64,000 bases of DNA from Gracilaria domingensis (Eukaryota; Rhodophyta; Florideophyceae; Gracilariales; Gracilariaceae): NCBI GenBank assembly GCA_022539475.1, contig VCMS01000018.1, positions 1-64,000 on the forward strand, written 5' to 3'. This document shows, piece by piece, positions 8,878-61,608 of this stretch. Within the stretch, counting starts at the first letter, position 1, and the number at the start of each line of letters is the position of its first letter. Made by a program: the position numbers and the translations under genes. The notes under the pieces are model-generated. The model saw only the letters and a list, made by a program, of their open reading frames with translations. It searched no databases and had not been told where the DNA came from.

Positions 8878-11800
8878 TTACGATTGACCTCTTATTCTCC
8901 GAAGCATCTTGTTGCTACTCTCTTCTGATTGTAGAAGGTTTTTGGAAAGACGAATTTCATCTATGAAATAGCACCGTTGACTTCCTCGATTTCGAGCGGA
9001 AATAGAAGGGACATTATGTTGGACAACACCGATCAATCGAGACACTATCGAAAGGTCCTCTACGGATTTAGTACCGAATGCTTTCGATGAACGACCCCTC
9101 TTGAATACTTGATCATACTGGTTCACCTCCAGTCCAGAGACCTATTGCATTAACCCCACCTGATATGTATTCTGCCAATGTCTCCATCTAGAGAACAGAT
9201 CGCGTTCAACTTTGAATTCGAGAAACAGCAAGATTCGACCGTAGTATACCTCTGTAGTGTCTTCAGAAACCATATTGCAAGCTATACTCCAGTTCTGTCT
9301 CGCCCGATTGTCCATGGCTTTCAGGGAGCCAGGAACGAAGTATGACGTAGCTACCTGGGTAATTTCTCCACTTCTGAAGCAAAAACGTGGTCGGAAGATA
9401 ACCTCTGAAACTTCTTCGAGGATGCCCAAAGCCTCCATATTTCCGAGACCGTCATACTTTCTCACAAGATAGCTCTTCAGAGAGGAAGAAAGGAAATCAT
9501 CGAGATCATCATCACCTCCCACCATATAAACATGTTCTTGGCCCCTCAGCTCGTATGCCTCTTGAGAACTGTACCTTTCTTCATCCTCATTCACATCACA
9601 AGAATCATTGGAAAAGACTTTGTAGGCTTCCATAAACTTTGGATCATTGAATAGAGGTGAAGATGCGAGGCTTCTAGCATTTATTCGGCCTAAAGTCCAG
9701 CCAATATATCTTTCCATCCAATGCTGTGAATAGTTTCGTGGCGGTCCGCACTCCAGCACACCCTCCGCAAGATGTAGTATGAAATGCAAGGTGTACGTGC
9801 ACATCTTCATACGATCAGCTTCTCCACCAAAATACATAAGCTCCATATGCTTGTAGAATCTCAAGCACAAAAGGCTTAGCTTTCCAATGTCAGACTGTGA
9901 GAAGGTGTTAGGATTTCGTTAATTCTGGTCATGTTTTTATTTGAATTTGTTATATTGCTACGCTTTTAGTTAGTCATTTAATGTTTTGATGCTTTCTTTG
10001 AATTCCCCGTGATCTAGCGATCCGATTTGATACCCTAATGATCCTCAGAGTCTTTGTTTGACATTAGTTGTCATAATGTTACCAAGACATGTCACGTGTG
10101 ATGTCTGCCTCGTCAGTTGACGTCATGACTGACTTCATAGTTTCGGTGCCTTGCTGGAACTTCTACAAATGGACACGTTTCAGGAACTTCTAGAAGCTTC
10201 CAGACGACTCCACTGTCGATTTCTACGCACAGTTTCTACACTAATTCCGACGCAAGGGCCAGTACTCATAGACACATTAGTTTGAAGGATATTCTAGAAA
10301 TCTGCGTTAGCGACCTTATTTTCGAAGGTCCGATTCTCCATATAAACCCTGGTCGACTGCCCGAACTCTCCTCGGCAGTCACCATCGTTCACGTTCTCAA
10401 CCTCAGACCCAGTGTTCTAACAGAAGGTAGGACGCCAGCACATGTCCACAATTTCTACAAAATCTCGCCAGCCCAAGATATAGGAATCGGGTAGATGGCC
10501 GTCCAGGACAATAAGACTGGAGGACAGAATAAATGCTTTAACCTCGGCGGACTTCCACTCAGCAAAGCGACTAAGTGTCCTTGGTCTGGAGCATACTTGG
10601 CTAGAAATACCTTTCCCAAAATTTCTCAACTCTTCGTCAATGTACCGTAGAGAAGCCTTCGAAAGATGACAAGGCCGTTCCTCATCATTAATCCACGCAC
10701 GAATGATATCTTTTCCAATATTGTAGAAGAGATGCATAATGTCGATCGGGAACGAGGCATATGGAACAATATTGTGAAGATCAAAAAGGATACTGCCTTC
10801 ACTAATTCCAGTATCCTTCTGCAGACTCAACTTTCTCTGGCCATTCAGACGTGACAATTCTCTGATGGTCTCCCAGCTCCGTTGCTCAGTTCGAAGGGGG
10901 AGGTTGGAATGGTCAGAAATTTGACGAACTTCATCGGACGTGTTTAAGATACTAGAAAAGTAGTAATGTCTCCGACTAACAGGCCAAACGCCCTCAATAT
11001 GGAAAAATCGACATGGTCGTTTGCCGTTATGGCCTCGTTCACCCGAGATCTTTTTCACAGCTGGCAGATCTCCAGTAAACCATATTAGATGGACTCTCAC
11101 TTTTCTTCTCGTGCCATCGTAGAAGAGGAATTCAGTACCGTCCCCATTGTTTTCCAGTTGTTTTAACTCTTCCAAAAGTGGGCCCAGAAATGATTCAAGA
11201 TCATCAGGCTCTGTTGGACCAGGGATGAAAGTGAATGGCAACACGTTTCTAATGAGGAAGCGTTCTCGTGGTTCCAAATTGCAGAGAATTCCGGCTATAG
11301 GCCAGACTGTATGAGTTTGCTTGCGAAAAGCTTGAAAACCATCTGTGGAAACGGATAGAAAGATATCGTTCTTCATGGCGTCAACACCGCCATACAGATT
11401 TGCAATGCGTTGAGATGACTTGGTGTGCATGAAATCCGAAATAGAACCATCGTTCTCTCGTAATCTGGAGTGGAAGTAGGTGTACAAGCTTTCGCACTTT
11501 TCTTTGCTTTGAAACATGTTTTTCAATCTCCCACGCAATGAAATCCACGAAACCGATGGAAATGATGATGCATCGCTGGTCGGTCGCGGTTTATGACATA
11601 TAGAGCATGATACAATCGTAGGGTTGAAGAAACACATGTGGCCTGGACAGATAGGAAAACAAATGACATCCTCCGTGATTCCTGACTCAAGACACAACCG
11701 CGAAACCACAGTCTTCCAGCACTTATATGGCAAATTGATATTCTTTAGAATTGCATCCATAACAACCTGCGTAACGTTATGACGGAAGTACGGCTCTATC

Positions 11801-12648
11801 CAAGACTTGTTCTCCAGGATCCACGTTGTAAAGCACGTATTGGAGAGCCCAGTGTCCATTTGCGATTGTCCAAAATAACCGGCTCCAGTGTTCGGACTGC
11901 CCAATGACACTTCGCTCCCAGAATCGATTGAATGGTTCTCAATCAAATCTATGAAGCTACAGGCAGACTCTCGAGCTGTAACTGAAAGATGTTCATGCAT
12001 GGATTCCATACCATCAATCTGCATTACGTTGCTTTCATTATTCAGAAGATGATCAGTTTCTGAATGACGAGGGTTGGAACTCAATTGAGCAATTTCCTCT
12101 ACACTTTCCGGAACCTCCTCGAGAGCACCCGCTACAGATGCTTCTACATGGGTACCCTGCTGCCTTGCTGCATCAATGACTAAAGCTTCTGTATTCATGT
12201 GATAGAAATTAGCCATGGCAGGTTGTGCTTCATCCTGTGCTTCGGCTTCATTGAAGAGATGTTGCACTGTATTGTGGGCTCTCTCCAACTCTTCTTCTTC
12301 ATCGGTTCTCTCCTCTGCTACAAGAGATCTCAGAATTATTGGATCAGATAGAGACTGCTCTACATAAGACTGATATTGTGCTCGAACGATCATACTCTCC
12401 TGCTCACGTGGTCCCCATGGTAGTTCAGTCTGCAAACCTTGCTGCAGTCGTAAATTATTAGCCGCCTTCCTGTGCTTCAACATAGTGGTTCTGCTAACTG
12501 CCTTTTCTCTCGGGTGGCACGAGCACTTATATTCAGGTAAACAGACATATCTGGGATACATGTCGTGAACAGCGAAATAGGAGCGACTTTCGTGTGTAAC
12601 CTTGAATTCTTCTGAGCGACGGCTAGAAGAGGAGTCCAAATATCTCAT
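8878..12648 (-). pseudogene. Tnp2-like transposase, element 1 (split by a solo LTR)
   Basis: The protein begins MRYLDSSSSRR and has an early Cys/His patch (YKCSCHPREK). An acidic linker is followed by a zinc-knuckle-like CPGHMCFF ... CSICHKPRPT. The catalytic region then shows SVSTDGFQAF (first acidic residue), FTGDLPAVKK (second), GHNGKRPCRF and FPIDIMHLFYNIG. These match the Tnp2/Transposase_21 order. After the LTR the frame resumes unchanged, and the C-terminal part holds VYYGRILLFLEF, a DUF4216-like module also present in elements 2 and 3. A TAG at 9142-9144 precedes a last conserved segment (SIVSRLIGVV). Without the LTR and one target duplication, about 1083 codons remain, close to the other two copies. 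Confidence 0.75.
9906..10422 (+). mobile_element. Solo LTR of an LTR retrotransposon, inserted in transposase gene
   Basis: The 517-base element starts TGTTAG and ends CTAACA, a perfect short inverted repeat typical of LTRs. It is flanked on both sides by the 5-base duplication GAAGG (9901-9905 and 10423-10427). A TATA-like CATATAAACC at about 10338 suggests the LTR reads left to right. No internal region, second LTR or coding part is present, so it is a solo LTR left by LTR-LTR recombination. The perfect termini and duplication suggest a fairly young insertion relative to its host transposon. Family is probably Copia-like from the TGTTAG end, but this is weak. Confidence 0.85.
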
Positions 12649-12901
12649 TGAAGAACTTTTTGCTACTTTGTGGCATTCTTAGATCCTCAGGTACATTAAA
12701 ACTTGGTCGTGAAACCAAACAATGTTTCGTTTCGCTCACAAGTAATGTTTTCCTTCACAACACGTTGCAAGTGAGCCAAAGATTTCGATTCGCGTTTGTC
12801 GATCTCGGTCAACGTTGTTTTCTTGCACGCATACTTTGCAACCGTGGAGTTCACAGGTGAGCATCGAGGCAGTCACCCCTGTAGATCTATGCAAAGTCGA
12901 T
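12649..12901. promoter_or_regulatory. Divergent promoter region of element 1
   Basis: This 253-base gap separates the start codons of the divergent transposase and accessory genes and must hold both promoters. No clear TATA box is visible. The same arrangement recurs at 16961-17546 and 60053-60336, which suggests coupled expression of the two genes. Confidence 0.4.
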
Positions 12902-14725
12902 ATGGCGCAAAGCTCCTAGCACACTCCTCTAGAGCGCTTTCTGCTAGACACCAAAGATGAGATCGTTCGCACATGGAAGGAAGACATTGCTTTGGTTAAC
13001 AAACGTCTTGACCGACTCGAATCTGGCTCCAAACGCCCCACGACTCCGAGTCCACTACGAGGTAAAGATTTCGTCCGTGAGCCCAATGTCTCAGCATTGA
13101 TGAGAGCTGCAATAGATTTGCAAAACGCATCTATCCCTGACGGCAGTGAGAAGTACATTAAGTTCCCTGTGGGTGTCTCCGATAAGAAGCTGAACACCGA
13201 CGCAAAAAATGCACTAAAATGCAACATGATCGAGAAACGTGGCGAGAACTATGGACTTCTTTCGAGGGCAATTGCTGCCAAGACTTCCCATTTTCCCCAA
13301 TGCGAAGCAGTCGTACGCACGGCCGCCAGATCAGAAGACTTTATCGTTTGAAGGCAGAGCAGCAACTTTTGGTGCATTAGGTGGCTTGCTGAGCGAATGA
13401 TGAAATCCAGAAAGCGCCCAACAAAACCCACAAGCCATTCTGCCTCTCTTCGTCAACGTATGGCACATGAAATACCTCCGGCACCCGCACCTATGCCCCA
13501 AGCTGTTCGAAATGATCAAAATTCTTTGAGATATGGCCAAGAAGAACCATTAATGACCGGAGAGCTTCAGACATATAGAGATTCAAGGCATACTAATGAC
13601 ACTCCAAATGAAGAAGAAGTCAGTACTTTCCCGAGATCAGGTAATATTGCGGAAGCTGTAGAACAAGAAGGAGATACAGCTGGAGCAAGTTCAGTTTTGT
13701 ATTCTGTACGGCAATTGGCACAAATAGAACTTAACGCACAGCCTGTTGGACAGATTCACGCCCTTCAAAGTACGTCGGTCACCGCGAACTGCGAAACAAG
13801 ACCGAGAGAAACACATCCTACATAACTTGCACAAGTTCAATCAGAAGGTATGCAAATTAACGAAGCATGCAATGTGGACTTGGAACGCAATATTGCTGCC
13901 AACTGCCCTGTCCCGGAGCGTGGGACACGAATAATGAAAACAGTTTTAGGACCTGCACCACTGCCTAGACGTACAGGAAGGCGAATGAACGAACCAGTGA
14001 ACGACGCATCTGAACGAAGAGCAGAGCCCTTTGTTGGTAGTTTCGAACCTTTTCGACAACGAGCAACTGAAACGAGAATACCTTCTGCTTCTTACACCCC
14101 ATCCGAATATACAAAAAGGTGAATCAGAGTCCACGAACCGTTTGGGCAGGAAGGAGACAACAATTTCTCTCGTTATGAACCTGTTACAAAACGCGCGGTA
14201 TCAGCTCTTGGCAATAGAGCCCAGGATAGGGGCAGGATACTCAACTTTTCATCAGAAGAGCAAGGAAACTGTTCTCGTGTTCACCTTGGGTATGAGATAG
14301 AAAGAGAGAGGCCACTTACAGTCTCGAGCGTGACACAAACCCGTATCCGAGGCTCCAAGGAGAATGAGGTCCACACCGGTCGCTCAATTCAATTACGTTT
14401 ACCCCTTAAAGCTCCGTCGCTGATCCATCGTCATAATTCAGAACCCACAGCGCGAAATGCGCGTTCTCTCAGTAATCAATTTAATCCTAGACTATATAGC
14501 CCTAACGAAGATCTTAATCGACAACCAAGAGATCAAGATGCAATGGAGAATGTAAGCATAACAGTGACTGCTCCGTGTGATGGATTTAGGTCTTCCGGTT
14601 TAGTTCTGAACTCTGCTGTGATACGTACTAGACCGTCCGAGCTTGGAATTTCTTATCGTGTATCGAAACGTGGAGATGTTGGCGCAATTGTTAGGACATC
14701 AGCTCAAAGAAATGCTCAAAAGTGA
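12902..14725 (+). pseudogene. Transposon accessory protein, element 1, with four in-frame stops
   Basis: One frame runs from an ATG at 12902 to the end at 14725 (608 codons) and is broken only by stops: TAG 12917, TGA 13349, TAA 13823, TGA 14120. No frameshift was needed. The start reads TPLERFLLDTKDEIVRTWKE. Near residues 131-165 it has the core shared with the partner proteins of elements 2 and 3: a Phe (residue 131), a basic hydrophobic stretch, then a Trp 26 residues later (157) followed by a leucine-rich end. The rest is Arg/Pro/Ser/Thr-rich and poorly conserved. Its function is unknown. By position it is the counterpart of TnpA-type DNA-binding helpers in CACTA elements. Confidence 0.6.
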
Positions 14726-14790
14726 GGAAGAGGGCGCACTAGAGGTATAAAAGCTTTTCTTCCAGGCTCCTTGCCCTGTGAACAATTTAC

Positions 14791-14829
14791 ATGGCCAATG
14801 TATGGCCAACTCATGGCCAACATATGTCC
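14791..14829 (+). repeat. 11-bp short tandem repeat, ATGGCCAA type
   Basis: ATGGCCAA occurs at 14791, 14802 and 14813, with a degenerate ATGTCCGAA at 14824, an exact 11-base spacing. Further GGCC words follow (near 14890, 14905 and 14955). It lies just past the accessory gene, where subterminal transposase-binding repeats of CACTA-type elements are usually found. Confidence 0.4.
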
Positions 14830-15571
14830 GAAATGACCCTTCTACACGTGGACGAGAGATGGGCGATATAAGCCCGAAATAGGGCCTGAGTAAGGCCAAA
14901 AAGAGTGTGCGAGAGGGGGCCTCATTCAGAATGCCCAAATCTGACCCAAAAGGAGGCCAATTGTGTCATTTGCAAAGGTCCCAAGGAGAAGGAACAATAA
15001 GAATATTGTGATCCAATGTATAACAAGAAAAGATCCATAGGTGACCTGAGCCATGGTCGCAATCGTATCAAACTATGATCCATATTGTGTCGCAAGTACA
15101 CCATGATTCGTGCTCACCTAACGACAAAAAGTGGACAAAGCAAGTACGATATGTACTGCGTATGTGACCGCTTTTCGTACGAACCATAAGCCTATAGTAT
15201 GAAGTATATGAAAACAATACAGGTCCTCAGAAGGCTCTATTTAATGGGCTTTGAGCGACCTTGAATGGAGCGTATGCGTACCTGTTTCACATCTATATAA
15301 TATCATGTTGCACACCTATGAAGATCTAATGCAGAACGATTGAATGTCTTATAATTACCACGTGGCATACTATGAGTGTACGCTGGTAGACCTTAACATG
15401 GTCATTTACTGAAAACAATAACAATAGCATAGATATTTGGGTGGCTCAGTTTCCGAAAGTTGTGCACGTGATTAAGAGATGAATATTGTTTCTCGTATAG
15501 CCAGGGTGCAAAGCCGATAAGTTCCATTGTACGTGGTCCACCCAATACGGCAAAACGTAACATGTGCTCGA
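14830..15571. other. Spacer between elements 1 and 2
   Basis: No gene is seen. The stretch is moderately AT-rich and must contain the ends of elements 1 and 2, but no inverted terminal repeat was recognised. Confidence 0.4.
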
Positions 15572-16960
15572 TCATTCCCGTTCCCGGGAACTCCCAGCAG
15601 CAGCGCTTGTCTTCTTTGGATTCTTTCGCTGACGCTTACGAGAGTGAAGAAGTTTCACTCCTCTGCAGCTTGAAGGCGCTGCATTACCTGAGTTCTGAGC
15701 AGCTCTACCTGACATACCATTCTCAACATTTCTCTCAGTCGAAGGTGCAAGTGCTCGCTTGGGTGTTTTCCTAGGCTTCTTCTTCCCCACGATCGGACGA
15801 ACGTGATGCTGAATCTCAGATACGGTCCCCGTGCTCTGCTCTTCAGATCTCTGTGGCTTCAAGGCAGGGGCCTTATCTCTCAGGCCTCTGTGATTAAAGT
15901 TGTTTGAGGCAGGCTGTGCAGAGCCCTTTCGATTTCGGATTCTCTGAGGTTGAGGTGGAGCTGCCTTCCGCCTGGCATCTACAGAATGCGAACTGTCACA
16001 AGGCGATCCATATTCCTCATCAGTTGCTTCCACCACTTGGTCAGTATCGTTTTCTTGAGACCCATCTTGGGCGCCATCGTCACTCTCGGAATCGCACACT
16101 TCACCATTGCCAATCACCCTGCTTTCCTCCTTGTCCTCTATCGCGACGTTGCCAACTGCTTCGCCTTGCCCATGGTATATCACATTGTGACCATTGCCGG
16201 TTGTTGCATCGTTGGTAGCAAGTCTGGGTTCTGCATGTCCTCCGCACATAGAATGGCTACCACCAGTTGAAGCATGTATCTGTTCTTGCTGATCAGCAGA
16301 ATATGCATGGTGTGCTTCCGCAGAAGTCGCGATTTTCTTCCTATTCTCTCGCTTGCGTGCCTCCGCCGCGGCCTTCCTATCCCTTTGAACTACTTCCTTC
16401 AAGAATTCATTCAACACCCATCCCCCCTGCGCAGCGGACAAGACTGGATAGGTTTCAATAATCCTGCGCTTAAGGTGCATGATCTGAGAAGGGAACTCTC
16501 TCTTAACCGAGATGTACGTTCGGGTACCACGCTCAAACCCAAGGAGGTCGTAGATATATGAGCGCATGTCATCCTTGATCGCATTGGCCATCGTGGTGTA
16601 TATCGGATAGCCATCTTCAATGCTTTCCAAATCACGGCCCATTTTTTCCTGATACCGGCGATTAAAGAGGGCCCTCGCTGAGATGGTGGTGCCTGTCGAA
16701 ACCCCCGGTCGGTCGGAATCCCTCAAACATCTTTTCATCGAATCTGTGGGAATCATGACGGAGCTAGCTGGCAGCACTCGTTGGCCTAGGATATCAGCAC
16801 CAGTTGAAGCACCTAATCCAGAATGAGGATGAGCTCCTTCCATCGACTGGTTCGAGGCCTGAAGCGACTGTGCAGGGAGACCTCGACGTTCTGAATGCAT
16901 GGCACTATCAACAGTAACCCGAGGTAAAGTACGCGTACTCATGTGGGAAGTGACACTCAC
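15572..16960 (-). CDS. Transposon accessory protein, element 2, 462 residues, intact
   Basis: The frame is uninterrupted. A Ser/Thr-rich head is followed by a structured part at about residues 92-200. Within it lies the shared core: Phe156 (REFPSQIMHLKRRI), then Trp181 followed by VLNEFLKEVV. A very basic stretch follows (RDRKAAAEARKRENRKK). The C-terminal half is low-complexity, with acidic repeats (SESDDGAQDGSQ) and a basic end (HSRKRQRKNPKK). Phe-to-Trp spacing is 25, against 26 and 25 in elements 1 and 3. The protein probably binds DNA or the transposase in the nucleus; this is inferred only from charge pattern and gene position. No Cys/His cluster is present, unlike the element 3 partner. 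Confidence 0.65.
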   Translation of the reverse strand: MSVTSHMSTRTLPRVTVDSAMHSERRGLPAQSLQASNQSMEGAHPHSGLGASTGADILGQRVLPASSVMIPTDSMKRCLRDSDRPGVSTGTTISARALFNRRYQEKMGRDLESIEDGYPIYTTMANAIKDDMRSYIYDLLGFERGTRTYISVKREFPSQIMHLKRRIIETYPVLSAAQGGWVLNEFLKEVVQRDRKAAAEARKRENRKKIATSAEAHHAYSADQQEQIHASTGGSHSMCGGHAEPRLATNDATTGNGHNVIYHGQGEAVGNVAIEDKEESRVIGNGEVCDSESDDGAQDGSQENDTDQVVEATDEEYGSPCDSSHSVDARRKAAPPQPQRIRNRKGSAQPASNNFNHRGLRDKAPALKPQRSEEQSTGTVSEIQHHVRPIVGKKKPRKTPKRALAPSTERNVENGMSGRAAQNSGNAAPSSCRGVKLLHSRKRQRKNPKKTSAAAGSSRERE

Positions 16961-17546
16961 CGCCGTGCTGCAAGATTGAGGAGATTTCGATCGTCAGTGA
17001 TTGGTTCTCGATGGCAGTACGATAGTCCTGTACGTACTTGGGTAGTAGACGTAATCCGTACGCAATTCGAAATGCAACTTAACGGCAAGAACGGAGCAGA
17101 GATTCAGTAAGAGATGAGAACTCTGGGTTCTGGGGTGCAGGGACTTCTCAGAGAGGAAAGCCATTCTGATGCACCCGAGTGGTAAGAGAAGGGTGGGGTA
17201 CATAAGGTAAGAGAATGAGCGGGAGGATAGAGCTCAAGTACGAACGCGAGCGGAAGAGAAGAACCGAAGCGAAAGCACCCCCTTGAAGTTAAAATATTTG
17301 TCGAGTTTCAACAAAGATTCTCAGACTTTGAAATTGCTCCCAACATTCACAAAATGAACAACTTGTTGACATGATATGCATGCATCTACTCAAGTGTTCA
17401 GAATTTAGAAAGGCTATGCGCCTTGGTTATTGAAGATAAAGCCTCTCCAGTCAGTGGCACCTCACATATTATCCATTGACGTATCGCTCTTGAAGATATA
17501 GTTCTCGGATTCCCTTTCAGTTCTTGCACTGACCGAAGGAGCGAAG
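16961..17546. promoter_or_regulatory. Divergent promoter region of element 2
   Basis: The 586 bases lie between the two divergent start codons. No strong motif is visible apart from AT-rich words such as AAATATTTG near 17290. Confidence 0.35.
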
Positions 17547-20500
17547 ATGGGAAGAGGAAGGAAGAGGTATCGATGGGAAATATCCATGTGCGCGAAGCAA
17601 CCATTCAGTGACTCTGAACAAGTGCCGGAAGAAAAAACAGCAGCCATTGAGGGATACTCAGCTCTAGACGCTCATTCTGATCTGCCTACAGAAAGGAGCA
17701 ATGAGAGAGCTAGAAGTACAGATTTTGGGGGAAGAGCGGATTCGGTACCGATCAGCGATCTAGCTGTTCAGTATGAAAGTGATGTGGAGATCTCGCTACA
17801 TGCAAAAGTTCACAATGAGCACTTTGGGCGTTCTCTAAGTCCATGTATCCGGGATGAAAATGAACCAAATGATGTACATTCACATAATGATGAAAACGAA
17901 CCAGAAAATCTTGTGGAGGATTCGTCAAGCATTGGGCAAATCTCAGTAGTGCGTGGAAGCTTTGCTTCAAATATTCGATCGTCCGATCGCCTCGAATCCC
18001 CTCTTTCCCACTTTTCAAGTACTTTTCAAGAGGAAAGGTCAGAACGACAAGATGAGTACAAAAGACTGGCTGCATTCTTGTACAACGCAGAAGTTTCCAA
18101 TGTCTCACAGAATGGGATACAGAGGTTATTGAATATACCCTCAATCCAGTCCAACACTTCATATAGAGCCCTAATTTCGTACACAGTGCAGAAGGCACAC
18201 ATTGAGAAATCATACCTCATAATGTGCTCTCAAGGCCATGTGGCTCACGCCGGAAAACCGCGATCTGCACGAGAATGTCCAAGCTGCAAGAGTCCGCTCG
18301 CTGCGAGCAAACATAAGTTTTGGTTTTTGAAACCCTCATCGGCATTAAAAGCACTTTGTCGCGCTCGGCATTCATTTGAAGAAATAATGTATGGGTGTCT
18401 GAGAGCAAAGGAATCTTTGGCGCACCATCCATTCGATGTTCGAGACCATGATTATTATCACGGAGAAATGTTCCTCCGCCAACATGGCCAACGACTTGAA
18501 GAGTGGAATGCAGAAACTACTGAACTTTTCGTCTTTCTGTCGTTATCTTCAGATGGATTTGAGTGCACGAAGAACCGAAAGGGTACTCCAATTTCCACAT
18601 GGCCGATAGTATCAACTATCTTGAACTACAACCCGAGAGAAAGAAGCCAGGCTTCTAATTGTCTCATACATGCTATTGTTCCTTCTTCTCATGATCCTGA
18701 GTACTTTGACACTTTCGTAAGTGAAATAATTTCGGATCTGAAGCAGTTAGAAAAGGGAGTAATGGCAGTTTGCTATGATGGAAAGATTAGAAGGCTGAAA
18801 GTATTCGTCCTTTTCTTCACTGCCGACTGGCCCGCTGCATCCAAGATCCTAGGTTATGTTGGGCACACGGGCAAAGTTTTCTGCCGGTTTTGTAAGAAGC
18901 AAAGAGTTAAAGTTAAAGAGTGCCAATGCTTGTGCGCCGTCTCAGAGAACCGTTCGTTGTTGTTGAGATTTAATCGTTCTCGAGCGCCATACAGAATTGG
19001 TGATGTAATAGAAATGGAGTGCATCGGCAAGCGAAAAACGTCTGAGATTGATCAAGCGTGGAAGGCCCTGGGGTCAAGCAAGACTGACGAGAAAAGAAAA
19101 CGCGAGATTATCAAGAAATCTGGCATCAAAAGAAGTTCGTGTATGTCCCAGTTGTCGGTCGACTTTGTTTTTTCTTTTCCATATGACGTGATGCATATGG
19201 TACTGCTCGGATGGACAAAGCACGTTCTGAGGCTTTTGACAGCAAATCACCCAAGACATGAACGGCTGGCGCAGATCCCTCGGTACTGTTTGCAATCACG
19301 CAGGCTTGACCTGATCAACAGAGCTTTAGAGAACTGCACGCATGGAATTCCGAGCTCATGGGGAAGATCTCCGCTATCCTTACAGAATCTTTCGCGTTTT
19401 AAAGCAGAAGACTTGAAGCGCCACGCCGAGTTGTACCTTCTCCCCGTTTTCCAACGCTTCGATGTAGATAAGCAAATTATGCACCTATGGAACCAGACTC
19501 GTCAGCTGGTGAGCTTGTGCTTCAGTTATAACTGCGACGCTGCCAGCCATAAGGTTTTGACAAGAGTAGTCGAAGAGTGTTACACAGTCTTCATTCGTTT
19601 GTTCTGTCCAGACCGATCCTCGCTATATTGCCTGACACCTACCACAAACACCATACTGCACTTTCCGGAGCTTCTGAAGCAATATGGTCCTCTCCCAGTC
19701 ACTTCACAGTTCTTGGTGGAAAGAGTTTTGGGGGAGATAGGAAAACGGGTACAGCAGACATCCAACATTTCGTCCCATTTGTTCCATAAGAACTTCAAAT
19801 TGCTCGCTCTCAAGCTGGCAAATGATGGAAAGACGTTTTTTGACGTCGTACAGGAGTCTTCTTCAAATATTGGGACCTTCTCAGGTCAAAAACATGGGAG
19901 CTTCACAGTGAGAACCGTACCATTGTACACCGGTGCCAATTGCCACGGAGCTGGTACGCCGTTGCAAGATCTGAACAACGAGCGTAAGCGAGCTGTGCGG
20001 CAGTTTCTTTCAGATAATTTTCCGACGCAGATGAACAAAGCAGACGTCGTTTCCATGAAAGAGTTCAGAACGGGCAACCATAAGCAGAAATTCAGCGTAC
20101 TTCAAAATCGAAAGCCTAAATCTCATAGTCTGCGATGAAAACGATCATCCTACCAGGCCCGACAGAAGTATTGCGTTGCCGTACACTTCATTCCCGAGAC
20201 ATCCATATGCTCCACGTCTTCGGCAGATTGCGGGGGGCGGGTTTATAATTGGCATTTGTACTACGGTGTTGTCAATGATATTATAGAGGTTGTACTTGAA
20301 GTTGAAGGAATGAAGGTCAACGCAGTCTTTGTGGATGTGATGTGGGATCTAAACATGGTGGAAGAGCATGGGTTTGATCTGCTATACTCCGAGAAGAAAG
20401 GGCGGGGACACATCACCAGAGAACACATCAATTGCATTCAAAGAGTTGTCGGCTTTCTGGATCTCGATGGTAGAAGGTACTACCCTGACCCGTTTCGGTA

Positions 20501-20552
20501 CCAAGACGGTAACTATGCAGATGTTCTTCTGCAAGGCGTGATAAGAAGTTAG
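17547..20552 (+). pseudogene. Tnp2-like transposase, element 2, one in-frame stop before the C-terminal module
   Basis: The frame is open for 863 codons from the ATG at 17547. After an acidic head it shows a zinc knuckle around residues 228-253 (CSQGHVAH ... CPSCKSPL). Then come LSSDGFECTK (Asp near 335), FTADWPAASKILGY (Asp near 426), GHTGKVFCRFC and FPYDVMHMVLLGW near 546. This is the Tnp2/Transposase_21 order. A TGA at 20136-20138 follows, and the same frame then continues to 20552 with YQARQKY, LYYGVVNDIIEV and VVGFLDLDG, the DUF4216-like module found in elements 1 and 3. Total length would be 1001 residues. The stop may inactivate it or leave a protein lacking only the last module; which is true cannot be told here. 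Confidence 0.8.
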
Positions 20553-20580
20553 TATCGACTTGGAATTAGTAGTATAATCG

Positions 20581-21082
20581 TTATTGAACAATTATGGCAT
20601 TGTTGCAATTTCCCACCACTTCTGATGAAGTACCTTGAGACTCGCACCAATAGGACGTTATTCGGGTACCTTTTGATGGCATCCCGAACGTATATGTAGG
20701 ACCTGCCGGATCTGTGCAGCAATCAGGCTTAATCGAGCAAGCTCCGTCCACGCGCTCCCATCTTCCCCCTTCATCTGTATACAGCTTTACAACATGCCAG
20801 TTGCGAGTTCCAGAATAGGTAGCGAAACCGTACATTTTGATAGTTTGTTTCTCATATGTAGGAACGAACAGATGTGGATACACGGCTTAATGAAAAGCCA
20901 GAAGCACTTCCTTACGAATTATTTCCCTGAGATTGTAACGCTTGACATAAAGCCAACGCTCCATTCCCACAGAAATAGAAAGCAAAAACGGTTCTCTATC
21001 TCAGACCTGATACTTGAATGCGCCGCCCACAAATACCAGAAACAAACGTGGAGCAGAGAAGCAGAGAAAAGGAGATGCGCAT
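20581..21082 (-). CDS. Possible small secreted Cys-containing protein, two exons
   Basis: Exon 1 (21082-21007) begins MRISFSLLLCSTFVSG, a good signal peptide. A CAG|GTCTGAG donor and a pyrimidine-rich stretch ending TTAAG give an intron at 21006-20886 (121 bases). Exon 2 (20885-20581) then continues in frame to a TAA and gives a 126-residue product. The mature part has several aromatic residues (GTRNWHVVKLYTDEGGRW) and Cys spaced as C ... CC ... WCE ... C, suggesting disulfides. No family was recognised. The plus strand over the same region is also open (20794-21240), so this is a structural guess supported by the signal peptide and consistent splicing. Confidence 0.4.
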
Positions 21083-21433
21083 ACGTGAAGGCGAACATCG
21101 GATACGTCCGCAAGTTGACGATAATCAGCCTAGATCCCAAAGAAGTTATGCGCAGCGTATGCCAAGGATATAGTGAGACATGGGATCAACATGATGTACA
21201 GTTCGAAGGCATGGAGCACATTGGCGCGCCCAAGAGATGATGGATCGATGTTGTTGGCTAGTCATCGACAATATGTAAAGATAGTACCGATGGTACCAAT
21301 GATCGTGGTCAAGTGCGATGGAACAGAGTCACAACGGTAGGGAGAAATATATACTGCGCGAAGTGTCCACCAGTTGAGAAAACGTGTTCCCCTAGATGTG
21401 CAACAGCGTGACACGTAGAGAGTACGAGTACGG

Positions 21434-21469
21434 TTTGTAACATGTCCCATCAGTGGGACATGTTACAAA
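21434..21469. repeat. Perfect 16-bp hairpin with 4-base loop
   Basis: The arm at 21434-21449 (TTTGTAACATGTCCCA) is exactly complementary to 21454-21469, with TCAG between. It could be the two abutting ends of a small element or a cruciform-forming site. Confidence 0.75.
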
Positions 21470-21607
21470 TTGTTAGGAAACAGGCGCGTCCATCTTTGCA
21501 GCACAAACGCCATCCACGTTGACCAGTTCTGTGGCCAAATGACATTTCAAACAAGCGATTCAGAAACGTACAAAGAGTAGAAAATCCCGGAAGAGGCGAA
21601 CTGTGCA

Positions 21608-24052: not shown

Positions 24053-24489
24053 TCAAAATCGCCCACACCCGAAAGCATTCAGTAGCCCCAGACTCAGACA
24101 TGAACCCATCAGGGCACATACCGCAGGACTGTTGCCCCGTTTCAGTTTTAAAGAAACCTCTCTGACAAACTTTGAAAGCCTCTTGCCATCACAGAGGCAT
24201 CTAGCAACGTGACCCTAGCGAACTTGATGAAGGTATTGAACTCCGATCTCAAAGGTGAGAAGCTTCTCAGCCTCAAAGTGCCATTCAATCGAACTGTAGC
24301 ACATTGAAAACTACTTACAATTGTCTGTGCCGTGTTTGCCAGGTCATTGTAATTGTCAAAAATGGCTGCGGCTTGATTAAAGCAGCTGTTCGATAAGGAC
24401 TCGGTAACGAGATTGATACCGACGGCTCGCATGAATGGAAGATCTACACATCCAGCGTAGCTGAGCAGCGACTTACCATAAAAGGCCAA
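24053..24489 (-). pseudogene. Exon-like ORF pair, unidentified
   Basis: A minus-strand frame (24489-24319) ends at a good GTAAGT donor. An acceptor-like TTTGAG 71 bases on joins in frame to 24247-24053, which has one TAG near 24215. The product includes DLPFMRAVGINLVTESLSN and later KRLSKFVREVSLKLKRG. No family was recognised. It lies just past the glutathione synthetase fragment on the same strand but is not part of that gene. Confidence 0.2.
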
Positions 24490-24560
24490 CCTGAGAACTG
24501 ATCAAAGCACTTCGGAGCAATGAGTGGTTGTGATCGATCGCTCAATGTTAATTTTAGGTT

Positions 24561-25190: not shown

Positions 25191-25194
25191 TGCA

Positions 25195-50590: not shown

Positions 50591-50599
50591 CACTCGAAC

Positions 50600-52514: not shown

Positions 52515-52532
52515 AAACCTAGTCCAAATCAT

Positions 52533-53499: not shown

Positions 53500-56400
53500 T
53501 TCTAAAGCATAATCTTTTGTTGCACAAAAAGTGGTCAAAGTGAGGCACTGGCTTTTAGTACCTAATATCCTCCAGCAGGGAATCTATTGATTCAAATGGT
53601 GTAAAATATTGGACCTCTAGTTTGCCCGAAGAGCTACCTCCGAGCTACCCTCCGTACGCTAGGTTTAGTCAGAGTGATTAAAAAGAGCGTAGAAATTTTC
53701 AGACCCATTTCTTTATGTTAACGCTGTTGAAATACATCTTGAGCGCCGAGAACATTATCGGGAATCTGTTCACCATAGGACCTTTTTCTGATCCGAAATC
53801 AATATTTCTCGATTTCAGAAAAGCTGCGCAAGATAACTTACTTGAAGTTCACCGTGTTGGACACAGTAGCTTCGAAAATCGTTTACGACAAAGCTGACGA
53901 TATAAAATCTGGCCATAGGAAAATATCAGAAAGAAATGAGCGACATGGATAGTTCTAGAAATGTTGGGCTCATCATTTTTAACAGCTTGTGCACAAGCCA
54001 TCACTACTTAATGCCTCAGTTTTCTAAAGAGGCCAATGCGTGCTTAAGCCAGTCACTCGAGAACAGCGTATGAATGATGGCGAGGCATATGAGATGGTCT
54101 TGATTGACTGTTCTCTTTGCCAGATTCGGCAATCGAATGAGATTAAGTTTTGTTTTACTTCTTGCCCAGACGCTTTTGATCATGTACTCATCTTGGTTCC
54201 CAGTCGAAATATGAGATATAGTTTGGATAAAAGTTTGATATAAAACTTAGGGTATAAATTGGATATAATTCACCGACGTTCTTGGGATACTTTTGAGATA
54301 CAGTTCAGATACAAAATTGATAAAATCTCCATAACCACCAGATACATATTACAACGTTGCTCGAAACCTTTTTGATATCTTTGTCGCGTAAATTTAGGAT
54401 GAGAAAGATAACAATTTGGTATGGAATAAATTCAATTAGCTTCTGACCTTTCGCCACTTCGTATTTTACAGCTCAGTATGTTAGATATGCATCCTGTAAT
54501 ATCGATAATACATGGAAAGAAAGAGTTGATACCAGTTTTCAGTGAAACAATGTGCTTTACTTCTTCTACAGCTACAAAATTCACTCTAAACAACTCTTGT
54601 ATAACTAGAGTGTAGTTCCAATTGGGAATCCTTCAGATGCAGACTAAACAAACGCCTGAGAAGAAGATGAAAACCGGCGGTTTTGCTCACCTATTTGGCT
54701 GGTGCGTTGTATCTGATCGCATGCGCAATTTCCTTCTTCAGTCATAGTTTTGCTTCTCCGGAAACAGTTGGTTCTCGGTCCTAGGGCATGCGATGCGCAG
54801 TGGACCTCGTATGCCAGACAGAGAGTAATGTGATCTGCGAGGTGATCGGTGGGCCTAGAGACACATATGTTGACTGTTGGGATGTCCGGGGCGCACCGTT
54901 AAAGGGCTGTGATTCGCTCGACGGTGTTTTAGTCCGTCGTGGTGGCGGAGAGCCAGCCTTGGAATGAAAGAAATGGAGAGAGAAAAGCCTTCTGGGGCAT
55001 TTCGATCTCCAAATATGTACTCAGGTTAATATGGAGACGAGATGGTGATGTCGAAGAAGGAAAAGTCCGAGTCCAGTGTTGCGGAGACTTTCATAGTCAA
55101 TCTGGGCTGTCGTCAAGCGTTGCCAAAAATCCCCCAGCTTCTCAGTTAGAAAGTTCGCTGCATTCCAGGTAAGTTAGCAAGCGACTCTTACCGTGTTGTT
55201 AAGCGGTGGGCCTTCGACCGCACTCACTAGATCAACATCAGAGGGCCACACCACAACAAGACGTGTCTCATATATCACGTTGGCCTTCAAAGACATTATA
55301 GATGAGACGACTAGACCCAATTTGATTCATTGCCCACGTTTGCAGAAGAGCGAAAGCATATTCTCTAACGTGATTCAAAACCAACTTTGTTCCTCGAAGC
55401 ACTTCTCTGAGCCGACCTTGCCCGCAAGGCACCTTCGCAGCTTGTTACGACAGTATCCGTGTTCTGAGGCAGAACGGCTTCGTTCTACGTCACTTTATCG
55501 ACATCAGAGGGCCGCAATACGGCTAGACTATTCGTTTACACCACGTTGATTGTCTAACACTCCATCAATGACGTGCTGCGACCGAACGTACTTCATTTCG
55601 GAAGTTACAACACGGAACGATGGAGTACCATTTAGCGTACTTCAACCGCTACGCACGATTTCGGAGTTAAACACTGAAGTACCGGTGCCTAGAAGCCTTC
55701 TTCCGAGCATTTCACTCACTTCAAGGCAGAGGTTAATGTAGCCGGATGGCCCCAATAGTGTTCAACGGTCACCAGAGACGTTAATCTCCACGCACTCGCA
55801 GGAAAACGGCGTGTTTCATCTAATTGTACTGTAGCAGTGGCTACCACAAGAGCAAGAGGGGAACCGGAAAACAGACGTATTGTTTGGAAGTTGCTCTCAG
55901 ACTCAGGTACAACCCAGGCCTCAACTCGCATCAAGTAGGAGCGGTACGGTTGGGTTTCTGCCGCACGTTTCGGTTTCGGCTGGGCATAGCCCTGTTCTCA
56001 GTTTCGGTAGGTTTCGGAATTCGACCTTGATTTCCAAAGGTTGCAACGGAGGGGGAAAAGTATGGGGTTCTTCTTCATTAGAGTTTATCTACCCACTCCA
56101 GATGCACCGAGGGCAGCATGTGAGCAGAAGAAATACGTTTTATCGAACGGAAACGAGAGCCACGGAAGACGTTGTGAATGTCTTTCTTGCGAACGTGCAA
56201 ACGGAGGCATGCTTACGGACTCAGATATAATCTTTTCGCGAAACACGAACCAGAAGACGAAATGACTGTTTTCATCAGTTTGATGATCGCAAATAATGTG
56301 GAGAATGATTGTGCAGAGCCCTCGAATGAAACAGGTACGGATGTGCTTCTTGTGAAGCATTTCCTATGCAGATTTCTGAAGCTGGGGACGCTAGATAATG

Positions 56401-56947
56401 CACTGCAAGTTCTTCTTGCGCTCACCGCTGACATCATTATCTTCCTTTCACCCAGCTCCGCGGCCTTCTACCGTCCGTTACTTTGGTGCCTCCCATGTCT
56501 TCTCTTCTCGTTGCATGAGACGAATTAGCTGTTCATTTCCGACGCTGCCTCGCCGCCATAGATGTGAAAAGCCGCGCCGCAGGCCGCGCTAACTTTAAGT
56601 GTCGAGGGGCGGGAAAATTGTTGGTTGCTGTCGAAGGGAGATGTGAGCACGTCCAGACGTCGAAAGCGTCAACGCGTTTCACTTTCCAAAGAGTTCGTGT
56701 TTCCCTTCGTGCGGAAAGTTAACGAGTGACGCAGGATATTTGCACGTCGTCTCGTGTGCTACCCGTACTACCAACACCACTCTTGTCTATTTCTCTGCAT
56801 GTTTCCGGAGCGACAGTACCAGCTTGCACGTGCAAGGTGGTATGTGACACAATGCTTGGAAAAGCTTGAAAACCGTTCGACAGCAGTGCAAGTCCTCATA
56901 TCAAAATACCTGAAAATGATTTTTCTCTGGATCTAAAACCAAGACGT
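53500..56947. other. No clear gene; family 2 end at 54198
   Basis: A family 2 left end (CCCAGTCGAAATATGAGATA) occurs at 54198. From 54.6 kb GC content rises. A 116-codon plus-strand frame (56178-56528) with EDEMTVFISLMIANNVENDC could be an exon but no domain was recognised. The words CATCAGAGGGCC and CATCAGAGGGCCGC recur near 55230 and 55503. Confidence 0.3.
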
Positions 56948-59900
56948 CTAACAGCATCCTCGAATGGCCACCGATTCATCTTCAAAAACGAACCTCTGAT
57001 AATCGTCGAAGAAGAAGCGAACATCTCCATGGTCAAAGTATCCTATTCTTCGATCGACACATGAAAGAGGCTCGAAAGTTTTGAACTTTTGAAACACTCT
57101 TCCACTCCTTACTTTAGAGTTGAGCTTCGTGAACACAGTCTCGTGTCTCTTGTTGAGATGCAATCCATTTTGCCATTCAACCAGAACATACTTGAGAACT
57201 AAAATCTCTTCGTCTGTGATTGGTGATTCAGTGGAGACTTCGACCTTATAGATATCCAGAATGCTGCCATAGTGTGTATCAGTCACGTTGTCATCATGTT
57301 CTGAAGCATAGTTAGCGGCAATCCAATGGCTCTGCCGAGCTTTACATCCTTTTCTCGACTGATGTCTATTTCTCTTCTGGAATCTAGATTGCACTTCCAC
57401 TACAATGCCGTGCGTTTCATCCAAGAATTCGGCTCGTTCATACGATTGCACTCGCAAAAGTTTTGAAGCTATTGGGTTTGGCCTTTGGCTCGATTCCACG
57501 CGTTCGCGAAGACCTTTAGGAATGCTATCGCGTGCCAGCGTTTTTCCAGATCCATTCAAAGCCCACAAGTTGTCCTCCTCACATGGTGAAAGTTTGTGAG
57601 CAGCCTTCGACTTAAGTGAGATCCTTCCGATCGGTGGAGCAGATGAATCATTCTCCTCTGAATTCTCAATATCATAACTAACTTCGAAGGACTCATCCTG
57701 GACGACGAAGTCTGTGACTTGTGAGGTAGAGCTAGGAGGCTTATAATCATGTTTCGAATTCCGCCGTACTCCCCCTAAAATCATTCTAGTTCCAAACCGA
57801 TAGAGAAATTCATTCAAGATATTTGTCTCCAGTAAATTCGGTGACTTCGCGTATCGAACTAAGTCTCCAATACCTCACTCTGCCAGAAACTGTGAAACAT
57901 TAAGTAGCGGCCCATTTTCCCTCAACATTTGGGGGAGATGAAGAAACACATGAGATGTCGGAGTAAAGACAAACGCATGATCGTCGTCAACAAAAAGTAC
58001 CTTTGTGTACAGCGCATGAAGCTTTTGAACCAACGAGGATAATATCTCTGTGCTACTCGACGGCGGAGTCGGGTCAAGGACGATGAATAAGACTTTGCGT
58101 AGCGTTATCCAGAGGTGAAGCATGTCTCGTTTGCAGTTCGACTGCGAAAGAATTGGTACAGCATAGGACGCAAACGTCTTCAACGTCTCGGCTTTGTAGG
58201 TCGAGAAATGATCAAGAGCGAGCGGAAAACGTCCCCAATCGGTAGGAAAGACTGATGCACATTCGGCCAAAGAGCAATTGATTAGATATATATCTTCTTC
58301 CGGTACGACGAACGAAGAACTTTCAAAAAGCTTATCGTGAATTCCAAACGTTAACCGCGTCATGGTGGACACCAACCCAATGAAACATAAGTGCATAGTA
58401 TCATAAGGGAAGGAGTTCACGAAATCGGGAAGTATGCCCGAGACTAATGGTCTCCGTTTTATTCCCGTTTCTTTCGCTGCCATGTGACGGGCATGATGTG
58501 TAGAACAACTCTGAAGCTTGTTCCAGGCAGCTCTAGTGCTCGCATTCGATCGCGGGTTTGGACACTCACTGTTAATCCACCCATAGTAGTGGACGTCTCG
58601 AATTGCGCGCTTACGACTTCGGTAACTTCTATTTGGCATCAGTACAGACCCTGTAGTCATTTTCTCACAGTATCGACAACACAGCTTCCCCTTATGGCCG
58701 ACAAAGCCACCAAGTTTTGTGGCTGCAGGCCAATCCGCCGTCACAAAAACAACTAATCCAAAAACCCGTCGTATCCTACCATCCCAACACATCGTATCCA
58801 TACCATGCTCTAGTTTTTGCAAATCGTCGTATATTGGGCGAAAGAAAGTCTCAAACAGATCACCATGATGTGTGCCAGGTACTGTAGCTGGAACCAGAAC
58901 ATTGCATGCCCTGAAACTGTACGAGACGTCCAGATTCAAAACGGTGAGGGTTATGGGCCAGCATGATCGTATGATGGACTAATTTTGCTTCCCTACTTCA
59001 ACACCGTCCGTGCTCATTGTGAGAAAATTAAAAAGTTGTTTCTCGGGATCCCATGAACGCAGTCTAACGTTATGTTTTCGCACGAATGACTCTCCTTGAA
59101 AATAGTGATACATGTTTTCATCTGGTTCAGAGACTATTGATTCCTGAGCTCTGTGACATCCGTGAACGAGTTGATGAAACGATTTGTACTCTATACACAT
59201 TGCGTGAAGAAGCTGCGAGGGCTTGAGATAAAGAAACCTTCTGGCTGTCCCGAGACGTTTGTTGCAGCCGTTGACCACGCACTGTACTTCATTCCGATAA
59301 GAACCGCTAGCTGCCATATGGCCCTCCGGGCATGCTCGTAACGACTATAACTGAACGCCAGTTCTTCTCACGACATAGTGCTTCAGAGTATCGTACGTCA
59401 TATGTTGTTCGCCACGTGCTAAATTAATGATCTTTCTGCAGTCCACACGAGAGCATAAGCTGTGCTGCAGAACATCAAATAGAAATACCAACTGTCTTGC
59501 TTCGCTTTCAAGGCGCGGGGTACGCCCAAAAATAGTTTCTCGGATAACTACCGACTGATCAAAGTTATGAGCATTACCAATGTTGGCATCATCCAAGGTA
59601 AAGTCCAGTAGGTCAGGAACGTTAGAATACTTTTGGTGCTGAATTGAATTACGTGGTAATACAGAAGTTTGAATCCGAGGCATTGATCTTCTGATCTTCG
59701 GTAGATCCAGATTCTCCCAATTGGAGCTTCGCGGTCGAAGTTGTTGCCACAATGGAATTTTTCTTCGCTTTCGCGGTCTTTCGCAGCTCGCCATTGAAGA
59801 AAGAGAGGGAGAAAGAATTTCTGCAATGACATCGTCATCTTCGAGGCCTTCTGAAATGACTTCGTTGTCTTCCAACGACAACGTATCTTCCTCATGAATA

Positions 59901-60052
59901 CGTGGTGACGTTAAATGAGAGGAAGTCGGAATCGACGATGAAGGCGTATCCATTAGCACGAGATTTACACCTTGTTTCCAGAGAATTAAAGAGTAGGCGC
60001 AGGATAGGCCGAGGAGAAAGTTCCCGAAGAAGACATCAAATCTGAGTTTCAA
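56948..60052 (-). pseudogene. Tnp2-like transposase, element 3, three in-frame stops
   Basis: One frame of 1035 codons runs from 60052 to a TAG at the end. It is broken only by TAG 59345, TAG 58979 and TGA 57875. It shows the zinc knuckle (CPEGHMAASG ... CVVNGCNKRL), FLTMSTDGVEV (first acidic residue), FVTADWPAATKLGGFVGHKG and CCRYC (second acidic residue and zinc site), and FPYDTMHLCFIGLVSTM. The C-terminal part has CKARQSHWIAANYASEHDD and HYGSILDIYKV, then LSCVDRRIGYF, the DUF4216-like module. At the TGA the element 2 protein reads SQFLVERVLGEIG against SQFLAE*GIG here, so an Arg codon CGA became TGA. Confidence 0.8.
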
Positions 60053-60336
60053 GTTGAACGTAGAGATATGTCATGTATATTATTCGTTTACCATGATAGC
60101 ACATTTGCGGTGATAAGTATATTTCTGAATCCATGGCACGCGCACGGGAAAAGAAAGTAAAAAGTATTCTAACTTTTCGTTTCGGTCAAGTAGTAAAGCT
60201 TCACACTATCGTCATATCCATTTTGTCCGACTAGGCTCTCGGAGACACATATATCACGAGCCTCGTAAATCCGGCTTCGAGGGAACCGAAGCCTCGTTCT
60301 TTGTGTTATTTCTCTCACTACTTTCACCATCGCAGG
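60053..60336. promoter_or_regulatory. Divergent promoter region of element 3
   Basis: The 284 bases lie between the divergent start codons. It contains TATATTATTCG near 60076 and CACATATATCACG near 60247, possible TATA boxes for the leftward and rightward genes. Confidence 0.35.
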
Positions 60337-61608
60337 ATGCCGCATTCTCATCAAAGACCTTCACAGCGATCTGCTAGAGCGATAGCTTCAGGTGAAGCCA
60401 GAACCCACAAGAACGTTGGAGAGCTGGCTTATCCATGTGCGTCGCTTCGTCGCCGAAAAGAAGGTTCAGGTAGCCAACGCCCGGCTGCAGATATATTCAA
60501 CAGGGCTCATGCAGCATGGAAAAATCAACCGTATGATGCTTCCAACGTGGTCATTACGAAAGCAAGGGCACGGAGAATTCGTCTTCGAATCCGCAAAACG
60601 CTATATAGTGGAGTTTGCGAAGATGATTGGGCCATTGAGAAAGGGAAGTTCACCTATGCGGAGGCTGACACTCGGTTTCACCGAGAGATGCTCGGTCTTC
60701 GTCGAAAGCTTAATGCAACTTTTAGCTTTTTGCAGATGTCAGAAGATTACTGGGCGGCGGACTTCTTCCTCCAGGAGATTTTCAAAGTTGATAAGAAGTA
60801 TAAGAAGGCAGACAAGAATTGGGTGCATCCGAAGAACAGAAAAGAGGCCAGCTCGGGAAACCCCACTTGTCCTCAAGTCAGCAACGAAGAAGAATGCGGC
60901 GAGATTTCTCCGAATGAAGTATCAAAACTCCCCGCGAAGAAGACCGCAAATAAGAAGAATCACTCAAGATCTAAACAAGGTGGCCCTGCGAATGTTTCGA
61001 AAGAGGCAAGACTGATGAAAGCCACTTCACTGTTACCCGAGAGTTCGGAAGAGAGCTCTAGCGTGATCGAGTCCAGTACGATAACCCGTATCCAGAACCG
61101 AACTAAATCTCGTGAAGGAGGGGAGAATAGGAGCAGTCTTCGAAAGGAGAAGCGCAAGTATTCTTTCGAACAAAGATCCAAAGATGTTGAAATGTCCACG
61201 GTATATCGCAGGAAAAGCAAAGCTTCCCGAGTGATTGATGAGACCGGTGAGGAAAGCTCCTCCTTTGTCAGTAGTACCGATAATGACGTGACTTCTTTGG
61301 TGCCGAGTGAGAAGAAGACCCACCGAAAAACATCATTGAAAGAGACGAAAGGTTGTAAGAAGCGGGAGAGAAAAGTTCAGGGTAAAGAAGAATCGTATCC
61401 GAAGAAACGTAAGGTTGAATTTGGCACGAAGTGTAGGTTGATGAGCTGCAACCATCCTGGAAATCCCGCGGACAACTGCCTTGTTTGTCGCAATGCAATG
61501 CACAACTTGTGCGATATGCGGATTCTTGGTGATGCACATGTTGAGGGTTTGCATCTGTGTTCTTGGAAATGCTTTGCACGTCGTATGCGTGAGATGAATG
61601 AGTCATAG
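60337..61608 (+). CDS. Transposon accessory protein, element 3, with PHD-like C4HC3 end, 423 residues
   Basis: The frame is intact from ATG 60337. Residues 114-149 hold the shared core: Phe114 (TRFHREMLGLRRKL), Trp139, then ADFFLQEIFKVDKKYKK. A long Lys/Arg- and Ser/Glu-rich middle follows (ESSEESSSVIESS; RKSKASRVID). The last 60 residues have a Cys/His series, C-x4-C-x9-C-x2-C-x5-H-x2-C-x15-C-x3-C, from GTKCRLMSC through NCLVCRNAMHNLC to LCSWKC. That is the C4HC3 order of PHD fingers with slightly wide first and last pairs. A chromatin or DNA-binding role is plausible but inferred. The partner proteins of elements 1 and 2 lack this finger. Confidence 0.65.
   Translation: MPHSHQRPSQRSARAIASGEARTHKNVGELAYPCASLRRRKEGSGSQRPAADIFNRAHAAWKNQPYDASNVVITKARARRIRLRIRKTLYSGVCEDDWAIEKGKFTYAEADTRFHREMLGLRRKLNATFSFLQMSEDYWAADFFLQEIFKVDKKYKKADKNWVHPKNRKEASSGNPTCPQVSNEEECGEISPNEVSKLPAKKTANKKNHSRSKQGGPANVSKEARLMKATSLLPESSEESSSVIESSTITRIQNRTKSREGGENRSSLRKEKRKYSFEQRSKDVEMSTVYRRKSKASRVIDETGEESSSFVSSTDNDVTSLVPSEKKTHRKTSLKETKGCKKRERKVQGKEESYPKKRKVEFGTKCRLMSCNHPGNPADNCLVCRNAMHNLCDMRILGDAHVEGLHLCSWKCFARRMREMNES

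Follow-up and report, generated by a model that had tools for sequence, protein, structure and literature searches.

The first 64,000 nucleotides of a Gracilaria domingensis contig (C18:1-64000 in the locus naming used for genome-wide matches; hereafter the window) contain three elements, A, B, and C. Each has a Tnp2 gene and, as an initial annotation of the window had recognized, a divergently transcribed open reading frame (ORF) beside it. All three transposases match the Pfam family Transposase_21 (Table 1), C with a score of 27.7 bits, slightly below the Pfam cutoff of 28.6. We call the accessory gene beside Tnp2, and its product, the partner. The element coordinates first annotated have been replaced: judged by alignment, B is nested within A (8200 to 31412), copies of C match the window in separate blocks, and a 517-bp repeat interrupts the Tnp2 gene of A. 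Genome-wide counts refer to the assembly that holds the window (77.9 Mb, 680 contigs), the one genome searched; L and C numbers denote loci and contigs.

The partner family and its position beside Tnp2

The initial annotation had proposed that the three partners belong to one family. We found that the B and C partners match each other directly (BLASTP among 1852 ORFs; E values, 1e-5 and 3e-5) and that their genome searches, made with single-protein queries rather than profiles, share many loci. The 28 partners that could be aligned, which are B-type, C-type, or of a third, shorter kind, have in common a domain of about 110 residues, and 17 of the 28 make up the alignment A3. The B-type motif of this domain is approximately SARxxFNRxY .. 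IYxxMANxIKDxMRxxxY .. RGxxTYxxxKxEFPxQIxxLKRxI .. [FY]PVLxAAQxxWVxxEFxKExxQRDRK. Two further groups were distinguished from the A-, B-, and C-type partners: the E-type, and the C97-type (F-type), whose 490-aa proteins have the Cys/His-rich tail of C. Comparison of profiles with hhalign gave E values of 3.5e-5 for BC-E, 3e-5 for BC-F, and 4.6e-7 for E-F, scores that none of 150 column shuffles reached in any of the three cases, with hhalign probabilities of only 72% for BC-E and 73% for BC-F. When the A and E groups had each been enlarged by one sequence, EF-BC reached 3.1e-6 (0 of 200 shuffles). On these profiles, the homology of the B and C partners appears well supported, as does a single family that also takes in the E and F subfamilies.

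The A partner is a marginal case. A first BC-A comparison with fewer A sequences gave an E value of 0.077, and a later one gave 0.015, with a probability of 3% and 0 of 150 column shuffles reaching the score. After addition of the extra A and E sequences, BC-A stood at 0.017 (1 of 300 shuffles) and BCEF-A also at 0.017 (2 of 300). The EF-A comparison was negative (E value of 0.26, 55 of 200 shuffles), and neither A-E nor A-F was significant, with 141 and 80 of 150 shuffles reaching the respective scores. It is quite possible that the A partner represents a distinct helper family, analogous to the B/C family but outside it, as the weak E values, the low probability, and the missing E and F matches would fit. 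Against this, the aligned A-BC core shows the expected register (KD..M followed by W..EQ), and the A partner occupies the same position beside Tnp2. The A-type family is itself real, since 9 of its 14 merged places are divergent from Tnp2 (one is convergent and four have no listed Tnp2) and a search of the genome with a distant A-type protein yields 16 places.

The annotation had drawn on a constant spacing of 25 to 26 residues between a Phe and a Trp (F..W). The spacing is present, but as stand-alone evidence we rejected it as weak, because residue shuffles reproduced it in 93 of 5000 cases for B and in 1374 of 5000 for C. Nor is the motif intact in A as had been described: F and W flank an in-frame TGA (13349 to 13351), so that the window copy of the A partner is broken. 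In a relative, L051 (C10), the frame is open at this point. We consider it extremely improbable that the three neighbors are unrelated ORFs that carry F..W by chance. The frequency of the motif in shuffles of C and the insignificant comparisons of A with E and F speak for that view, which the B-C, BC-E, and BC-F matches, together with the linkage and selection described below, refute for B and C; for A it is possible.

We then looked at how regularly partners accompany Tnp2. Merging the A, B, and C partner searches gave 141 places, of which 91 have a listed Tnp2 in divergent orientation within 6 kb; the other 50 comprise 3 on the same strand, 2 convergent, and 45 with no listed Tnp2. When the distant A-type and further partner queries were included, there were 159 places, with 103 divergent within 6 kb, 3 on the same strand, 2 convergent, and 51 with no listed Tnp2 within that distance. 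The expectation in the annotation that every match would be divergent from a Tnp2-like gene was thus largely borne out, the exceptions being the same-strand and convergent places and some without Tnp2. Starting from the transposases, a Pfam Transposase_21 scan of the genome found at least 146 matches (150 of 152 candidates scored), and at 97 of the 146 places a divergent partner is the nearest link.

Of the 51 places without a listed Tnp2, 21 were represented by loci. We reexamined the 19 of these with some flanking sequence, near-identical copies included and the short loci L069 and L071 left out, and 15 of them do show a divergent Tnp2 stretch. Conversely, a blind check of C387, the one partnerless Tnp2 inspected directly (1061 aa, open, with no detected partner), revealed an E-type partner at the predicted place. 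Because of these two results, we attribute the missed Tnp2 genes and missed partners partly to a limit of detection. Eight of nine weak partner matches (E values of 1.7e-4 to 0.9) are also divergent from Tnp2. The ninth, on C80, matches the C97-type tail only and has no Tnp2 link, and it was taken as chance.

To follow selection, we compared nonsynonymous and synonymous divergence (dN/dS) in ten pairs of partner copies; the ratio for the domain was computable in five, dS being saturated in the other five. In three of the five scorable pairs, strong purifying selection acts on the domain, with ratios far below those of the tail: 0.06 versus 0.41 for C-L030, 0.08 versus 0.40 for L072-L073, and 0.08 versus 0.54 for L074-L078. 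Domain identity also follows Tnp2 identity (r of 0.96 across six elements, a value reached by 7 of 720 permutations) in a set that excludes A, whose partner is not alignable, and near-identical copies.

The domain was not recognized in the libraries that we searched. In Pfam, 17 A3 and 7 A1 members gave only scattered single-member matches (best E value, 0.015), and six proteins compared with NCBIfam gave one match, far under its cutoff. Relatives of the B partner were not found in viral contigs, nor relatives of the L085 Tnp2 in prokaryote contigs. A structure model of the domain is all-helical; a single-sequence model of the A-type protein was uninformative (predicted local distance difference test [pLDDT], 36.7). 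A limited literature search found no description of such a partner family. The annotation's suggestion of a new accessory family stands insofar as Pfam, NCBIfam, PDB sequences, and PDB folds hold no match, and "undescribed" covers these libraries and the literature searched only. Within this scope, the results suggest that the transposition machinery has a second component not described before, a helper with a conserved 110-residue core.

Element ends, known transposon systems, and a proposed role for the partner

B is the element whose ends could be placed. Its left end (14774) is the same within 1 bp in L010, L011, L012, L013, L014, and L015, where unrelated flanks diverge, and its right end (30860 to 30862) is common to eight listed places (C222, C57, C246, C174, C18:250644, C204, C370, and C124). 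The termini, CCCTGTgAACAAT and CCCTGTaAACAAT, are of the CCCTGT type and form 13-bp imperfect inverted repeats. C141, which carries a relative of element A, is continuous across the B site with a 3-bp overlap, and B therefore inserted into A. For A and C, scans for terminal inverted repeats returned many equally good pairs, none of which was accepted.

GGCC is clustered at both ends of B (Table 1), and its density inside B is 1.9 per kb. Other left ends have 5 (L010), 6 (L011), 7 (L012), and 7 (L085) copies, counts reached by 5, 0, 0, and 1 of 1000 shuffles, respectively; the motif was picked after looking, and three of these four ends (L010 to L012) belong to copies of B.

Captured gene pieces are known for CACTA elements, and B contains them too. 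Further likenesses to CACTA/En-Spm elements (maize Spm with TnpA and TnpD, Antirrhinum Tam1, soybean Tgmt*) are a Tnp2 (Transposase_21) accompanied by a second element protein, the 3-bp target duplication (TTG/TTG, seen in B only), the 13-bp imperfect inverted repeats, and the subterminal repeat clusters at both B ends and at the left ends of L010, L011, L012, and L085. Tgmt* likewise duplicates 3 bp of its target and has imperfect inverted repeats of 13 bp (PMC2613891, in part). TnpA binds subterminal repeats, TnpA and TnpD are both needed, and there is little sequence in common between CACTA helpers such as TnpA and TNP1 (PMC2613891, in part); the second CACTA protein has been called unknown in function (PMC8978399, in part). 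In Spm, however, tnpA and tnpD arise by splicing from a single unit (PMC1636069, in part), whereas the helper here is a separate, divergently transcribed gene. It also differs from CACTA helpers in having a conserved core with no Pfam match, and a third gene is common. The scanned partners had no TnpA, TNP1, or Transposase_24 match among Pfam profiles, as distinct from TnpA sequences. We have not filed B as a classical CACTA element, because a CACTA or CACTG terminus was looked for and is absent.

With TRC elements (SmTRC1 and its insect and fungal relatives), B has in common Transposase_21 and a CCC terminal core, which in Tribolium reads CCCTAGTAGC.. (PMC1636069, in part). The TRC target duplication is 2 bp, as opposed to 3 bp in B, and the part of PMC1636069 consulted describes no divergent partner family for TRC. 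From these comparisons, a CACTA/TRC-like system appears to be the best reading.

We think it probable that these are large, CACTA/TRC-related Tnp2 elements whose own TnpA-like helper binds the element ends. Tnp2 and helper are transcribed outward from a short central region of a cut-and-paste element, and the helpers form one rapidly diverging family with a predicted all-helical domain of about 110 aa. The helper would most likely fill the role of maize TnpA in a different way. The domain would bind the GGCC-rich subterminal repeats at both ends, and the helper would bring the ends together and recruit its own Tnp2, so that diverged helper-end-transposase sets may keep element families apart. 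The data themselves establish the family (A only marginally), its placement beside Tnp2, the selection on the domain, the codivergence with Tnp2, and the subterminal clusters of B, while DNA binding, pairing of ends, and contact with Tnp2 are the steps that we infer.

Besides the limits on the GGCC counts and the position of the A partner as a possible rather than a proven family member, several observations weigh against this reading. At 41 of the 146 Pfam Tnp2 places there is no partner match within 6 kb, and 4 of the 19 reexamined places show no Tnp2. Young pairs are weakly or not constrained (B-L011, domain 0.54 and tail 0.59; L030-L032, 0.19 and 1.73), and five further pairs have saturated domain dS. 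The charge of the domain is only slightly positive. No DNA-binding fold was recognized in PDB sequences searched with A3 (best E value, 0.038, dropped as chance), and Foldseek comparison of the domain model with the PDB gave a best E value of 1.9. The model itself is of moderate quality (pLDDT, 79.5; predicted template modeling score, 0.70) and is built from two window sequences only.

PIF/Harbinger elements combine a transposase with a separate, conserved accessory protein, a Myb-like protein that carries the transposase to the nucleus or stabilizes it. The elements described here share that arrangement, with another transposase and with a helper domain that has no Myb-like Pfam match. A helper that likewise carries or stabilizes Tnp2, with no binding of ends, is unlikely in our view. 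Codivergence of a conserved domain with Tnp2 could also reflect a protein-protein contact, and the modest charge of the domain is in keeping with it, but GGCC repeats clustered at the ends call for some binder, be it the helper or Tnp2 itself. Quite unlikely, we think, is a helper that acts as an anti-silencing factor or transcription regulator on a shared central promoter region. The divergent partner and Tnp2 ORFs of B are separated by a shared region of 586 bp, and TnpA regulates the Spm promoter (PMC1636069, in part); the GGCC clusters, however, lie at the ends of the element and not in this central region.

CACTA helpers share little sequence, so that end reading and coevolution with the transposase are hard to compare. 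Here, one genome offers about 100 Tnp2-helper pairs (103 merged places) in which the domain is recognizable and constrained, the subfamilies have diverged, and the ends of at least one element are defined, and tests that swap helper, ends, and Tnp2 or assay binding would therefore be direct. The results also suggest a domain family missing from Pfam. More tentatively, and with some doubt, the elements might represent a new superfamily-level lineage of Tnp2 transposons equipped with three genes. These would encode Tnp2, a divergent helper whose new helical DNA-binding fold recognizes a subterminal code of GGCC, and a basic repeat protein. The A, BC, E, and F helpers would then make up a single family that, by coevolving with ends and transposase, keeps the element families separate.

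The third gene, captured segments, and surroundings of the elements

TABLE 1 Features of elements A, B, and C in the window
Feature	Position	Strand	Basis or remark
Element A, first part	8200-14773	none	C141 relative at 88-89% identity outside LTR; broken by B
Element A, second part	30861-31412	none	C141 at 82-83% up to 31412; end undefined
A Tnp2, C-terminal part	9142-9905	-	C141 matches both repeat flanks, nearly contiguous there
517-bp solo-LTR-like repeat inside A Tnp2	9906-10422	none	Repeat copies elsewhere in genome
A Tnp2, N-terminal part	10423-12648	-	Transposase_21, E 5.5e-13 on ORF 10417-12648
A partner, piece upstream of in-frame TGA	12920-13348	+	17 genome places at E up to 1; alignment A1
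Target-site duplication TTG, left	14771-14773	none	Flank of B
Element B, 16,087 bp	14774-30860	none	Boundaries common to other copies
Left terminal inverted repeat CCCTGTGAACAAT	14774-14786	+	Terminus comparison
Left subterminal GGCC cluster	14774-14973	none	7 GGCC in 200 bp; 0/1000 first-order shuffles as high
B partner, 462 aa, open frame	15572-16960	-	92 places in genome
Partner domain in B, 109 aa	16355-16681	-	Alignment
B Tnp2, 863 aa	17547-20138	+	Transposase_21, E 1e-11
B Tnp2 C terminus, other frame (frameshift or small intron)	20139-20552	+	By eye like end of 1022-aa L085 Tnp2
Palindrome with perfect arms of 16 bp, between Tnp2 and third gene	21434-21469	none	Partly common to C237/C53 elements
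Third gene of B, lysine/arginine (K/R)-rich repeat protein	21548-22627	+	C18:21548-22213, E 8.1e-33; ORF 21803-22627; two TAG inside matched stretch
Captured glutathione synthase fragment	24636-25064	-	PF03917, E 1.1e-13
Captured ABC-2 transporter fragment	25065-25484	-	PF01061, E 7.1e-5, under cutoff
Captured host segment, FG-GAP/UnbV_ASPIC gene pieces	25862-30589	none	PF13517, 3e-9; PF07593, 2.9e-7
Right subterminal GGCC cluster	30661-30860	none	4 GGCC in 200 bp; 12/1000 first-order shuffles as high
Right terminal inverted repeat CCCTGTAAACAAT (read on - strand)	30848-30860	-	Terminus comparison
Target-site duplication TTG, right	30861-30863	none	Flank of B
C Tnp2, C-terminal piece of decayed gene	56948-57817	-	ORF; by eye like end of L083 Tnp2
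C Tnp2, Transposase_21-matching piece	57875-58939	-	E 1.8e-6
C Tnp2, N-terminal piece	59345-60052	-	ORF; by eye like start of L083 Tnp2
C partner, 435 aa	60301-61608	+	68 places in genome
Partner domain in C	60481-60816	+	Alignment
Cys/His-rich C-terminal cluster of C partner (approximate)	61420-61590	+	Common to 490-aa C97-type partners
Third gene of C, decayed	62858-63457	+	E 6.6e-8; one TGA and one TAG inside

The elements had been annotated as two-gene transposons, a description that is too simple, since many copies have a third gene downstream of Tnp2 or of the partner. A K/R-rich repeat protein used as the query (L085:6997-7797) gave 76 matches, 65 after merging. For 48 of the 65, a Tnp2 or partner place is found within 7 kb; the other 17 have none at this distance. 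The third gene is downstream of Tnp2 on the same strand, the partner being on the other side of Tnp2, at 22 of the 65 places, and downstream of the partner on the same strand at 9, including the C-type copies on C290, C309, and C470 and window C, and the C97-type copies on C510 and C73. Near the third gene, a palindrome (TTTGTAACATGTCCC..GGGACATGTTACAAA) at 21434 to 21469 in the window and at L085:7010-7045 is conserved in part between diverged elements.

The stretch of B from 24636 to 30589 holds pieces of at least three host genes, resembling Pack-CACTA capture in an element that also has Tnp2. A likely donor of the FG-GAP/UnbV_ASPIC segment, judged by its 94 to 95% identity and the lack of an element terminus, is C98:38014-42756.

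The 517-bp repeat in the Tnp2 gene of A has at least 38 other places at 98 to 100% identity (40 of 158 candidates scored). Several of its copies are paired about 6.8 kb apart, and we infer from this pairing that the repeat in A is probably a solo long terminal repeat (LTR). The high identity, together with the pairing, suggests a recently active LTR retrotransposon.

The blocks in which C-type copies match the window span 54195 to 61604, with a main block at 56928 to 61604, and the ends of C are undefined. By eye, the Cys/His tail of the C and C97-type (L082) partners looks like a PHD-like zinc cluster; it has no significant Pfam match, and the cluster found no match among PDB sequences. At the right edge of the window, positions 63863 to 64000 have 81 to 99% matches on contigs with B-like elements (C85, C15, C137, C136, C177, and C18) and are probably the edge of another element. 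An ORF at 34077 to 34832 encodes a RhoGAP domain (PF00620; E value, 7.4e-9) and is apparently an ordinary host gene.

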